Shown: piece after piece, positions 14,843-20,351 of the stretch
Numbering within the stretch: the stretch's first letter is position 1
How the letters are laid out: every line of letters starts with the position of its first letter
NCBI RefSeq assembly: GCF_009914765.1
Contig: NZ_WYDS01000011.1
Location: 1-64,000 of the forward strand
DNA: 64,000 nucleotides
From: Halodesulfovibrio sp. MK-HDV
Lineage (GTDB): Bacteria > Desulfobacterota > Desulfovibrionia > Desulfovibrionales > Desulfovibrionaceae
Reading direction: 5' to 3'
Position numbers and translations under genes: made by a program
The notes under the pieces: model-generated
What the model was told of the DNA's origin: nothing
The model's input: the letters and a program-made list of their open reading frames with translations, nothing else
Database searches by the model: none

Positions 14843-16840
14843 TTATGCAGTAGGAATGATCTGGTAGTAAGGCTTCTTGTAGATGGTGGTTTCACCAGTC
14901 TTAGGATCGTATTTGGAGTTACAGAAGCACTTCCATTTTTCGTCATCGAGGCCCATGAAGTCAGCACGGTAGTAGAAACCAGGGTAACGAGTTTCTGTAC
15001 GGAAAGAGATGTGCTGCATGTGCAGACGTACGGTCCAGAGACGATGGTAGTTTTCCCAGCAACGGAGAAGTTCGTGAAGGTCACGAGCAGCCAGTTTGAG
15101 GGAATCTTCTTCGAGCATATCAAGAAGGTGGAAACCAGTCTTGAGAGCTGCTTCAGAAGTGGTGTAGTATGTGCTACAACCGCCACCGTATTCGTCAGTT
15201 GCTTTAACCAGGCGCATCATGAAGTTCTTAGGAGAGATGTACTCTGGGTTAACAACAGGGTCTGTGGATACGTCTTTACCAGCCATGTAGTTGTCGAATG
15301 GACGATAGATCAGCTTAGCGAGATCTTTAGAGTCTTCAGCAACTGCAGGTTTGTAATCTTTGTGATCGATGCACCAGCGTACCATCTGTTTACCACAAAT
15401 ACGGCCTTCAGCGTAAGAACCAGAGGAGAACTTGTGACCAGATGCACCAACACCGTCAGCACAAGTCCAGAGGCCCATAACGGAAGTCATACGGTTGTAT
15501 ACTTTGCCGTTAGCTGCGCGAATTTTGTAGTCTTCAGGAACCCATTCTTCATCTGGACCGGAAGCCCAGATACCACAGCAACCGGAGTGGGAGCCGAGGA
15601 GGTAAGGTTCGGTAGGCATGATTTCAGAACCAGTTTCTTCAGGCTGAATATTCATTGAAGCCCAAAGGTTAGCCTGGCCAACACACATATCGAGGAAATC
15701 TTCCCATGCTTCAGACTCAAGATGCTTCTGTTCTGCAGGGCTAAGAGTTTCGAATGTGGTCTGAAGTGCAGTCTTGGTATCCATGTAAATTGGACCACGA
15801 CCTTCACGCATTTCACGGAGCATCATGTGGTTACGCAGACATGTTGGGATAACATGGCCTTTAGCGTAGCCGCGATCTTCGTAAGGCTTCAGCATAGCAC
15901 GGTTAGTTTCACAGTAATCTTCGCCGCGGAAGTTAGTTGCTTTCGCTTTAAAGAGAAGGAACCATGCGCCAACCGGACCGTAGCCGTCTTTAAAACGAGC
16001 TGGTACGAAGCGGTTTTCCATCATGGTCATTTCTGCGCCAACCTGAGCACACATGGTGTATGTGGAACCTGCGTTCCATACAGGGTACCATGCACGACCC
16101 ATGCCTTCACCAGTTGAACGAGGTTTGTATACGTTAACTGCGCCACCACATGCTACAACCATAGCATTGGAACGGTAAACGTGTACTTCGTTCTCACGAA
16201 GGTTGAAGCCAACTGCGCCAGCAATGCGGTTTTCTTCGGTAGCATCAAGAAGAAGCTTAACGATGAAAATACGTTCCTGGATGCGTTCTTCACCAAGTGC
16301 GTTTTTAGCAGCTTCAGCAACGATGCATTTGTATGCTTCACCGTTAATCATCATCTGCCAGCGACCGGAGCGAACTGGGGAATCACCGTTACGGAGAGAC
16401 TTGCCAGCAGCTTTAGCAGCAGCACCATCAAGGTTCTTTTCGTTCTCGTCTTTAATCCAGCAAGGCAAGCCCCACTCTTCAAAGAGGTGAACAGAGTCAT
16501 CAACGTGACGACCAAGGTCAAAGATAAGGTCTTCACGTACGAGACCCATGAGGTCAGTACGAACCATTCGAACGTAGTCGTCTGCTGAGTTATCACCAAG
16601 GTAGGTGTTAATTGCAGAAAGACCCTGTGCTACAGCACCGGAACGTTCGAGAGCAGCTTTATCAATGAGCAGAATTTTCAGCTCAGGTGCGTATTTTTCA
16701 GCCCAACGTACGGCTTCAAATGCTGCACCACAGTTACCCATACCACCGCCAACCATGAGGATATCTAAGTCATGTTCTACGATTGCAGGTTCTGCGATCG
16801 CAACGCCTCGTGGTTGTTCCTTTGTGGGAATCATCGGCAT
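14843..16840 (-). CDS. aprA: Adenylylsulfate reductase subunit alpha
   Basis: 665 residues, the usual length for Desulfovibrio AprA. FAD-containing catalytic subunit that reduces adenosine 5'-phosphosulfate to AMP and sulfite in the cytoplasm. The N-terminal dinucleotide-binding motif ILMVGGGMGNCGAA starts near residue 28. The fumarate-reductase-type FAD domain and C-terminal helical part follow. It is 34 bases downstream of aprB on the same strand, with AAGGAG before the ATG. Together with the qmo genes it forms the APS-reducing branch of sulfate respiration. Confidence 0.98.
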   Translation of the reverse strand: MPMIPTKEQPRGVAIAEPAIVEHDLDILMVGGGMGNCGAAFEAVRWAEKYAPELKILLIDKAALERSGAVAQGLSAINTYLGDNSADDYVRMVRTDLMGLVREDLIFDLGRHVDDSVHLFEEWGLPCWIKDENEKNLDGAAAKAAGKSLRNGDSPVRSGRWQMMINGEAYKCIVAEAAKNALGEERIQERIFIVKLLLDATEENRIAGAVGFNLRENEVHVYRSNAMVVACGGAVNVYKPRSTGEGMGRAWYPVWNAGSTYTMCAQVGAEMTMMENRFVPARFKDGYGPVGAWFLLFKAKATNFRGEDYCETNRAMLKPYEDRGYAKGHVIPTCLRNHMMLREMREGRGPIYMDTKTALQTTFETLSPAEQKHLESEAWEDFLDMCVGQANLWASMNIQPEETGSEIMPTEPYLLGSHSGCCGIWASGPDEEWVPEDYKIRAANGKVYNRMTSVMGLWTCADGVGASGHKFSSGSYAEGRICGKQMVRWCIDHKDYKPAVAEDSKDLAKLIYRPFDNYMAGKDVSTDPVVNPEYISPKNFMMRLVKATDEYGGGCSTYYTTSEAALKTGFHLLDMLEEDSLKLAARDLHELLRCWENYHRLWTVRLHMQHISFRTETRYPGFYYRADFMGLDDEKWKCFCNSKYDPKTGETTIYKKPYYQIIPTA

Positions 16841-16874: not shown

Positions 16875-17363
16875 TTAAACCGCAGAGGCCTTTTTGACCA
16901 TTGTGATGCCAGCTTCTGCAACTTCAAACTTCTGACCCATAGCTTCGATTGGAGCAACGAGATCTGCTTCAGTAAAGAGCAATTCGTTATCGAGATCAGT
17001 TGGCTCCGGCTTACCTTCGAAAGGCTTAATAGAGCCTTCAGGAGTAGTACGGATTGGGAATTTGAAGCGTTTTACATTACCGTTACGGAACTTAACGGTC
17101 CACATGATAGAATCAGCGGAACGCATTGGGATACAAGTGCCACCTAGAGGTGCAAAGTCAGCATATGGACGTGCTGTAATTGCGCCCTGAGGACAAATTT
17201 TAACACAGGAGTAGCATTCCCAGCATGCTTCAGGCTCCTGGTTGAAGGCCTTCATTTCATCTGCATCGAGAATCATGAGGTCGTTGGGGCAGATGTACAT
17301 GCAAGCGGTTTTCTCGCCACCTTTGCAGCCATCACATTTGGACGGGTCTACATATGTCGGCAT
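16875..17363 (-). CDS. aprB: Adenylylsulfate reductase subunit beta
   Basis: 162 residues. Electron-transfer subunit with two [4Fe-4S] clusters: Cys10, Cys13, Cys21, Cys25 for one and Cys47, Cys50, Cys53, Cys57 for the other, the spacing typical of AprB. The C-terminal tail wraps AprA in known structures. GGAGG lies before the ATG. First gene of the apr operon, preceded by a roughly 165-base leader and a promoter with Rex-like sites. Confidence 0.98.
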   Translation of the reverse strand: MPTYVDPSKCDGCKGGEKTACMYICPNDLMILDADEMKAFNQEPEACWECYSCVKICPQGAITARPYADFAPLGGTCIPMRSADSIMWTVKFRNGNVKRFKFPIRTTPEGSIKPFEGKPEPTDLDNELLFTEADLVAPIEAMGQKFEVAEAGITMVKKASAV

Positions 17364-18121: not shown

Positions 18122-20026
18122 ATGAAAAAAAATATGACCCTTGTTGAAGAAATTTCTGAACTTGATCTTGAGCTTTTGAAACTGCTGGCTCGTCGATCAA
18201 AGCTTATTAGTAAAACTCGCCGTCGCAAAAAAGAAGGCGCGGGTACTGATTCTATTTCAAACGAAAAGCGAATTCGTCTGGCATGGGAAGAGTCTGCTTG
18301 CAAATTCAGCAAAGACCCTCGCCTCGCACACCAGATGTTTACTTTGCTTCAGGATATTGAATTTATCTCCCGTGACGATGCGGATGACCAGAACACTTTC
18401 GGTCTTGCACCTAACACACAGCCTGTGAAGATTGACATTCCTGGCCCGGCTGCACTGAACGCTACCCAGATCTGGATTGCACTTGCCGCTGCTAACGGCG
18501 TTGAATGCAACCTTACTGGTATTTCTACTGCTCATCCTATTTCTGACATCGTTAAAGGATTCAACCAGGCTGGCGCACGTCTCAGCTGGAAAGGTAACGA
18601 TCTTTTCTGTAAAGAGTCTAAAGGACTCGACTTCGCAGATAAGGTTATCTTTGCTGGCAACAGTGAATTTAACGTTTACCTTCTTACACTTCAGGCTGTT
18701 GCCAAGCACGGCACACTCAAGCTGACAGGCGGCTCTACCCTTAAAGATGCTGATCTTTCTGCGTTCCGCAACTTCCTGACTCAGCTTGGCGCACGCATCG
18801 CACACGTTGTACCTCGTTCAAACGGCTTACCAGTTCGTCTCGAGTGCTCCGGTGTTCTCCCTGAAACTGTTGTTATCCCGGAAAACCTTCCTGAAGAAGC
18901 AATAGTTGCTACATTAGTAGCTGCAGCCACATGGGGTGCAAAAATTTCTCTCGATCTTTCACAGAACGAAGCTGCAGCAAACGCTCTTGCGATTGTTACT
19001 CCTATCTTCGAATCTGCTGGCATCGCATACGAAGTTGAAGGTACCAACTGTGTAGTTCTTCCTGAAGAACCAGATTTCCCTGTATACCCAGCAATCACCA
19101 TGGATCCAAAAATCTGTGCAAGCATTCTCGCTTACCCTGCATTTGTAGGCGGCAAAGTTGCATTGCACGGCACATGGCCTACCGACACTGCTGAAGGTGA
19201 CGCTGTTGTTGCATTGCTTAAATCCGTAGGATTGACTGTTGCAATTAAGCCGGACAGCATCGTAACAGTCAAACCGGAACGTGGTCACACCACTGACCCG
19301 ATTGACATGCAGAACCTTCCTGCAGGCTACTTCCCGCTCGCTTTAGCACTTACCTGCATTAAAGCAGTTGTAGCGAAAAGCCCTGTACAGATTCCTGCAG
19401 CTCCTGCTGGCACTTCCGTTGAAGTTATCGAAAGCTTTGTGGCACAAGCCAACATGCTTCTTGAAGATAATAAAGTACATCCAAATGCAGACGTTCCTCA
19501 CGCTAAAGTGTGGACCAGCCCTGATGCTTTCTGGACTATGGCACTCGGACAGCTTGCGTTCATGAATCGCCCGCTCCATCTTGCCAACCCAGGCAGCATT
19601 ACAGACCTGATGCCTACATTCTGGATGTTCTACAACACACTTCCAGAACCAACTATGGTTCGTAAGCCTAGGGAGGAAATGGATGGGGACAAACCAAGAA
19701 GACGCAGAGTCTTTACAGACGGCGACCCGAAAAACGAAGAACGCCAGCCAAGAGAGCGAGACAATAACTCCAGAGATGGCGGCTTCTCAAGAGATAGAGA
19801 CCGTGGCTCCAGAGACGGTGGCTTCTCTCGAGACAGAGACAACAACTCAAGAGACCGGGGCTACTCCCGTGACAGAGACGGCGGTTCCAGAGATGGTGGC
19901 TACTCAAGAGATAGAAACAACAGCTCCAGAGATGGCGGCGGCTTCTCAAGAGATAGAGACAACAACTCCAGAGACCGAGATCGCAACTCCAGAGATGGTC
20001 AGTCTAGAGATAGAAAAAGATATTAA
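18122..20026 (+). CDS. Chorismate-mutase-like / inactive EPSP-synthase-like fusion with SRD-repeat tail
   Basis: 634 residues. Residues ~5-85 follow the type II chorismate mutase pattern (LLKLLARRSKL, RRRKKEG, then a helix with basic residues). Residues ~100-510 have the internal repeats of an EPSP synthase fold, but the key motifs are gone. The LPGSKS substrate loop reads IPGPAA, GNAGTxMR reads GNSEFNV, and the KERP loop reads LKDADL. From ~545 the protein is a low-complexity chain of SRDRD, SRDGG and NNSRD units, strongly charged and perhaps RNA-binding. It is therefore probably not a working shikimate enzyme. It may be a structural or regulatory protein. The aminotransferase lies downstream past a terminator. 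Confidence 0.7.
   Translation: MKKNMTLVEEISELDLELLKLLARRSKLISKTRRRKKEGAGTDSISNEKRIRLAWEESACKFSKDPRLAHQMFTLLQDIEFISRDDADDQNTFGLAPNTQPVKIDIPGPAALNATQIWIALAAANGVECNLTGISTAHPISDIVKGFNQAGARLSWKGNDLFCKESKGLDFADKVIFAGNSEFNVYLLTLQAVAKHGTLKLTGGSTLKDADLSAFRNFLTQLGARIAHVVPRSNGLPVRLECSGVLPETVVIPENLPEEAIVATLVAAATWGAKISLDLSQNEAAANALAIVTPIFESAGIAYEVEGTNCVVLPEEPDFPVYPAITMDPKICASILAYPAFVGGKVALHGTWPTDTAEGDAVVALLKSVGLTVAIKPDSIVTVKPERGHTTDPIDMQNLPAGYFPLALALTCIKAVVAKSPVQIPAAPAGTSVEVIESFVAQANMLLEDNKVHPNADVPHAKVWTSPDAFWTMALGQLAFMNRPLHLANPGSITDLMPTFWMFYNTLPEPTMVRKPREEMDGDKPRRRRVFTDGDPKNEERQPRERDNNSRDGGFSRDRDRGSRDGGFSRDRDNNSRDRGYSRDRDGGSRDGGYSRDRNNSSRDGGGFSRDRDNNSRDRDRNSRDGQSRDRKRY
19751..20012 (+). repeat. Degenerate tandem repeat coding for SRDRD/SRDGG units
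   Basis: About 260 bases built from variants of CCAGAGATGGC, TCAAGAGATAGAGAC and similar units. It encodes the Arg-Asp-Ser-Gly tail of the preceding protein. A second frame (+1) is also open through the whole repeat and reads Glu/Thr-rich units. Confidence 0.75.
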
Positions 20027-20219
20027 GCAATTCGATAACGAGCTAAAAGCTATCGAAGACGCTTTTCGCGAATTAATCGCAACAGAAGATCCTGCAAAAG
20101 GCATCTTCCACGCCAGCGAGATTCATGAAAACCGTCAGCAAAAAAGCATTGCAGAAGTCAACCGACAGTTTGCAGTGAACAAAAGGAACAGAATCCGGTT
20201 GGAAGCTGAGCCATTTTAA
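19995..20219 (+). CDS. Possible small hypothetical protein overlapping the repeat tail
   Basis: 74 residues if it begins at the ATG at 19995, in the +1 frame relative to the SRD protein. After the overlap the sequence reads like a normal soluble helical protein (KQFDNELKAIEDAFRELI, then HASEIHENRQQKSIAEVNRQ) with codon use like its neighbours, up to a stop 10 bases before a terminator. No good ribosome site is visible. It is either a separate small gene or an alternative C-terminus reached by frameshifting in the repeat. Confidence 0.4.
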   Translation: MVSLEIEKDIKQFDNELKAIEDAFRELIATEDPAKGIFHASEIHENRQQKSIAEVNRQFAVNKRNRIRLEAEPF

Positions 20220-20229
20220 GAATAAAAAA

Positions 20230-20251
20230 CGCCGCACTAATTAGTGCGGCG
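20230..20251 (+). terminator. Rho-independent terminator
   Basis: CGCCGCACTAA and TTAGTGCGGCG form an 11-bp perfect stem followed by TTTTTTT. An A-tract precedes it. It ends the EPSP-like unit. Confidence 0.9.
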
Positions 20252-20351
20252 TTTTTTTGTCTTCCAAAACTGGACACTTGTCTCAAGATTGCCTATCAAT
20301 TTGCTGATTAACAATTTAGTAATTATTGACGCATTTCATACGAGGTATCTC

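Follow-up and report, generated by a model that had tools for sequence, protein, structure and literature searches.

In a 64,000-nucleotide window of the Halodesulfovibrio sp. MK-HDV genome (the start of contig NZ_WYDS01000011.1; genome size, 4.17 Mb), we analyzed a gene that joins a chorismate mutase (CM)-type domain to an EPSP synthase fold and ends in a long tail of SRD repeats, with a small gene overlapping its 3′ end (Table 1). Comparisons were made chiefly in an order-level set of 99 genomes (this one and 98 relatives; homologue cutoff, E ≤ 1e-5) and in a phylum-level set of 297. Homologues were found in 90 of the 99, nearly all in single copy, and no description of such a fusion family turned up in the literature library searched. 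The alignments suggest that it has lost both ancestral activities while being retained across the order.

Table 1. Features of the fusion gene locus (window coordinates)
Feature	Position	Strand	Details
CM-EPSP synthase-like fusion gene	18122..20026	+	634 aa; open reading frame; homologues in 90/99 genomes, own included
CM-type (AroQ) helical domain	18140..18388	+	residues 7-89; profile/alignment
EPSP synthase-fold domain	18392..19651	+	residues 91-510; former active site degenerate; alignment and predicted model
Basic C-terminal stretch RRRR	19697..19708	+	residues 526-529; R528 in 55/60 and R529 in 58/60 family rows
Low-complexity SRD/RDR tail, species specific	19724..20023	+	residues 535-634
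Tandem-repeat array	19749..19996	+	39-bp unit at 19749-19974; encodes most of the tail
Overlapping small coiled-coil gene	19683..20219	+	178 aa from ATG 19683 (where congeners have their start) or 74 aa from ATG 19995
Terminator-like palindrome and T run after the small gene	20224..20258	+	read by eye; absent from the scan listing
aprB (adenylylsulfate reductase beta; read from translation)	16875..17363	-	divergent neighbor; context only
aprA	14843..16840	-	divergent neighbor; context only

Both domains are firm at the level of the family. The protein itself matched PF00275 (EPSP_synthase) at E 2.5e-10 over residues 103 to 414 and PF01817 (CM_2) at E 0.003 over residues 9 to 73, the latter falling short of the model cutoff in this one protein; among 36 family members, 24 matched the first model and 30 the second at E ≤ 1 (best values, 7.3e-22 and 1.3e-11, respectively). 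Against the PDB, the family profile recovered EPSP synthases at 1.6e-30, and the CM part matched 1ecm, the chorismate mutase of E. coli, at 6.8e-7. HHalign aligned the family with the AroA of the same genome over residues 104 to 508 (99.7%; E 2.4e-25), and the alignment and predicted model indicate that the two-domain EPSP synthase fold is present at full length, while the CM part shows the AroQ helical fold. The combination of CM-like helices and a complete EPSP synthase-type fold proposed in a preliminary description of this DNA was thus borne out.

The same description held that the substrate loops of EPSP synthase are replaced, and all three replacements (IPGPAA at residues 106 to 111, GNSEFNV at 179 to 185, and LKDADL at 207 to 212) were found in the sequence. 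The active site of AroA, in E. coli numbering, comprises K22, S23, R27, R124, S169, S170, Q171, D313, K340, E341, R344, D384, H385, R386, K411, and neighboring residues. Eighteen such positions could be mapped onto the fusion protein (two more, K340 among them, fell in gaps), and 16 of these differ from AroA. Across 15 AroA rows (13 distinct) the positions are invariant, with zero entropy, whereas across 60 family rows they are scattered, the commonest letters being C or L at K22, R or A at S23, M or A at R27, L or A at R124, P at S169, P or A at S170, E or D at Q171, P or A at H385, V or W at R386, and A or G at K411. The loss is less clean at E341 (E in 10 of 60) and D384 (D in 28 of 60). 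Family entropy over the 18 columns was 2.23 bits, against a domain mean of 2.02; column sets drawn at random were at least as conserved in 83% of cases. Because the active-site positions are both replaced and unconserved within the family, EPSP synthase activity is very unlikely.

Loss of function in the CM part is less firmly indicated. Of the catalytic set of E. coli chorismate mutase (R11, R28, K39, D48, R51, E52, S84, and Q88, with R28 and E52 contacting the substrate), the equivalents of R28 and E52 (R25 and E48 here) are invariant in 60 of 60 rows; 48 rows have a basic residue at the K39 position, and 46 keep the D48 equivalent. Only 3 of the 60 have Arg at the R51 position, and in the fusion protein itself R11, D48, and R51 are replaced by V8, S44, and N47, so that, over the positions resolved in the alignment (all but S84 and Q88), the catalytic residues of AroQ are incomplete. 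CM activity is therefore unlikely, if less firmly excluded than EPSP synthase activity. These invariant residues, the basic K39 position, and the full retention of both folds are what an enzyme with one of its pockets rebuilt for a different substrate might show. However, the former EPSP synthase site is no better conserved than the family average, and the EPSP synthase-part columns conserved at 90% or more are mostly Gly, Pro, Ala, or hydrophobic, several of them common to AroA (the polar exceptions are K145, Q149, K200, D211, R225, R239, E241, N489, and N505). We therefore regard a new-reaction enzyme as unlikely.

A true AroA is encoded elsewhere in the genome. PF00275 identified AroA on our contig C2, MurA on C7, and the fusion gene, which is therefore not the only aroA-like gene. 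Two of the three outcomes by which the preliminary description would have been refuted, no AroA-like fold and no second aroA-like gene, did not occur. This AroA (C2, 24017-25339) is flanked by pheA (with its own CM domain), tyrA, trpE, and trpG, as read from their translations. In a quick tree of 52 proteins rooted on MurA, the 19 family rows formed one clade (Shimodaira-Hasegawa-like approximate likelihood ratio test, 100), which fell on the AroA side and had a long stem (3.35 changes per column); the family did not group inside AroA, and since both it and MurA are long branches the exact root is uncertain. Origin from a duplicated pheA-aroA neighborhood is only a guess. The gene is under purifying selection, with ratios of nonsynonymous to synonymous substitution rates of 0.100 and 0.107 against two congeners. 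Elsewhere in this genome, the chorismate synthase gene (C8:10155-11161) is split over two overlapping frames (model residues 1 to 259 and 258 to 327), a frameshift arising either by error or by decay.

In the phylum sample, 45 of 297 genomes matched the fusion protein. Nine of the matches come from genomes of the same family (own included) and align from residues 1 to 7; the other 36, out of 286 further genomes, align without the CM part, beginning at residue 91 or beyond. Of this latter group, 16 were placed in the tree, none within the family clade. A scan of 84,980 species by sequence pattern, its reach limited by the patterns used, found 71 loci titled Desulfovibrionales or unresolved Deltaproteobacteria/Proteobacteria, the closest named ones being Halodesulfovibrio (84 to 86% identity). 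One genome with an estimated 5% contamination (G085) holds two fusion copies, on contigs C54 and C76, each with a small-gene match. Nine of the 99 order genomes had no match at the cutoff. A profile search of these nine and of G372 from the phylum set gave matches in 6 of 10, the six best being AroA by similarity to the AroA of our genome, along with two further weak matches; G030, G038, G049, and G073 gave none.

Both domains derive from the aromatic pathway, and chorismate synthase was found in 94 of the 99 genomes, which might suggest a regulator or scaffold of that pathway that binds, for example, its enzymes. However, all five genomes in which chorismate synthase was not found keep the fusion gene. 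Three of the five contain AroA, so an assembly gap is likely there. The other two, G055 (99% complete; locus L191) and G020 (98%; L192), are near complete and keep the fusion gene, have no AroA or chorismate synthase matches, and their sole PF00275 match at E ≤ 0.001 groups with MurA; they apparently cannot synthesize aromatic amino acids by the chorismate pathway. PF00275 alone at this threshold misses the fusion gene in G055, G020, G015, and G096, so an equally divergent AroA could escape as well. Taken with the position of the gene apart from the aro/trp cluster in our own genome, these two genomes leave a role in the aromatic pathway with little to recommend it.

The location beside aprBA likewise invites the idea of a role in sulfate respiration, the fusion gene lying within 10 kb of aprA in 52 of the 71 genomes with both, on opposite strands in 52 of 52 (of the remaining 19, 17 have the two genes on separate contigs and 2 have them far apart). 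However, the gene is not found only with apr genes: it is kept in each of the 19 genomes that have no aprA above the cutoff, and the nine fusion-less genomes all have aprA. Three of the 19 (G023, G068, and G077) hold aprA fragments, and 10 of the remaining 16 are at least 95% complete. With a Fisher P of 0.2, no link between aprA and the fusion gene is shown in either direction. In G055, which lacks apr, the neighbors read as psd, pssA, nth, cutA, a PfkB kinase, thiD, and gyrA, with no common theme. The apr neighborhood looks ancestral rather than functional, and a role in sulfate respiration strikes us as remote.

The preliminary description also noted the SRD tail. The tail is present in the sequence as described, but it is private to this species: none of nine congeners has it, the five closest (83 to 85% identity) having open frames of 546 codons, and it matches nothing else in the genome at E ≤ 1. 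A family-wide RNA-binding module in the tail is thereby rejected, and RNA binding through it is unsupported as proposed, since the repeats expanded recently and congeners lack them. Composition gives a weaker hint of RNA binding, both in the RRR motif conserved near the C terminus and in the Arg-rich N-terminal extensions of some members. Of 69 homologues, 48 had a segment long enough to score and 19 carried such an extension under a single composition rule, with the true starts uncertain; Arg/Asp-rich repeats such as RDARD, ERAERPERSDR, and RRDDSRND precede the CM domain at loci L117, L086, L124, L134, and others. Given these extensions and the SRD tail, basic low-complexity arms occur at either end of the protein.

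The small gene overlapping the 3′ end encodes what is, on our reading, a coiled coil; three small-protein sequences gave nothing over the cutoff in Pfam or NCBIfam. It spans about 75 to 100 codons and in congeners starts within the 3′ end of the fusion gene. By profile it lies downstream in 83 of 130 loci (some genomes contribute more than one) and occurs in 84 of the 99 genomes overall. All 77 genomes with both genes have it directly downstream of the fusion gene and in the same orientation, and in 65 of them the matches overlap, although match ends only approximate the gene ends. Seven of the nine fusion-less genomes carry it (G014, G018, G030, G033, G039, G049, and G058). In six of these (loci L195 to L200) the preceding gene reads as sat in three and as an aldehyde dehydrogenase in two, one being ambiguous, and none of the surrounding frames gave a family-profile match at E 10; the fusion gene is missing at the small-gene locus in these six. 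Three other fusion-less genomes (G030, G038, and G073) are only 64 to 84% complete.

In strain MK-HDV, the 39-bp array fills the overlap, reading as the SRD tail in one frame and as a SQEIETTTPEMAA-like repeat in the small-gene frame; repeat periods of 117, 42, and 21 extend to 19995-19996, and a start at ATG 19995 would give a small protein without the repeat. A single array within the overlap of two frames could thus lengthen two different proteins. The other frame is open, but equally so in 2,000 of 2,000 codon-order shuffles, so its openness is no evidence of dual coding, and differences between repeat copies are spread about evenly over the three codon positions. Rfam gave nothing above the gathering score on the window, and a promoter scan returned 3 matches against 3.1 expected.

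Some published mutant fitness data bear on the family. Dde_1106 of Oleidesulfovibrio alaskensis G20, called an EPSP synthase, has fitness values of -0.75 to -2.41 over seven conditions, compared with -4.60 to -6.22 for Dde_1008, a histidinal dehydrogenase (PMC5193443). Another source gives aprB as Dde_1109 (PMC10133479), three tags away, so Dde_1106 is in the right place for an orthologue. Start cultures lacked yeast extract, and starved samples were regrown with it (PMC5193443), so the values argue only indirectly against auxotrophy of the mutant. Cluster V of that paper, which is large and mixed, holds Dde_1106 along with RNase E (Dde_0537) and an RNA-binding protein (Dde_1175) (PMC5193443). 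Apart from the label on this probable orthologue, little speaks for an ordinary but divergent second AroA or chorismate mutase, which the 16 differing positions, the separate clade, and the true AroA make scarcely credible.

We consider it probable that the fusion is an order-wide double pseudoenzyme with a noncatalytic binding or scaffold role, acting with the coiled-coil protein outside both chorismate synthesis and sulfate respiration. The exaptation of an inactive paralogue put forward in the preliminary description is well supported by the degenerate site, the separate AroA and clade, and the retention in G055 and G020, although inactivity is read from alignments; the structural or regulatory job it envisaged is plausible. 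A new job is probable because the gene is kept order-wide, even in two genomes seemingly without the pathway. Several points weigh on the other side. Two mapped positions, S181 (AroA S84) and D468 (AroA D396; D384 equivalent), agree with AroA; the D313 column has D in 15 rows and E in another 18 out of 60; and an Arg lies one column off R27 in 49 of 60. The invariance of R25 and E48 could mean retained ligand binding. With seven genomes having only the small gene and 13 only the large one, the two are not an obligate pair. Disruption of Dde_1106 does carry a fitness cost, its orthology being probable by name and position near aprB rather than by sequence.

As a pseudoenzyme scaffold, the protein would have arisen by an old fusion of a CM domain with an EPSP synthase fold, whose active sites then decayed. 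The CM helices may form a dimer or partner interface, the EPSP synthase fold may serve as a rigid platform, and the C-terminal RRR motif, with the Arg-rich disordered extensions where a member has them, may contact an acidic partner such as RNA or an acidic protein; the small protein would be a cotranslated partner. More speculatively, and with considerable doubt, such a dead shikimate fusion with its coiled-coil partner and Arg-rich arms might scaffold a regulatory complex, for instance one associated with RNA or ribosomes, that has outlasted the chorismate pathway.

The family stands apart from its known relatives. Compared with AroA (TIGR01356, PF00275; PDB 1g6s and 2bjb), the fusion protein differs in most active-site residues, belongs to a separate clade, and has an extra N-terminal domain; it is 12 to 18% identical to the EPSP synthases compared and scores 52.4 on the NCBIfam AroA model, against a cutoff of 287.25. 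MurA (UDP-GlcNAc enolpyruvyl transferase) is a weaker match than AroA and forms a separate clade. Unlike the AroQ chorismate mutases (CM_2; 1ecm), the fusion lacks the R11 and D48 equivalents, rarely has R51 in its family (3 of 60), and has an EPSP synthase fold attached. TyrA-AroA (NF011381) and AroA-Cmk (NF008816) likewise fuse an EPSP synthase domain to another protein, but these models are named as bifunctional enzymes, and the fusion scores only 10 to 12 bits on them, against cutoffs above 900.

To our knowledge, pseudoenzymes of central metabolism have rarely been traced across a whole order. Here, beside the well-known genes of sulfate reduction, lies a fusion that appears to have lost both of its active sites and is kept even in two genomes seemingly devoid of the pathway. 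The plain EPSP synthase annotation of its probable orthologue is a warning that this label can stand on a protein unlikely to be one.
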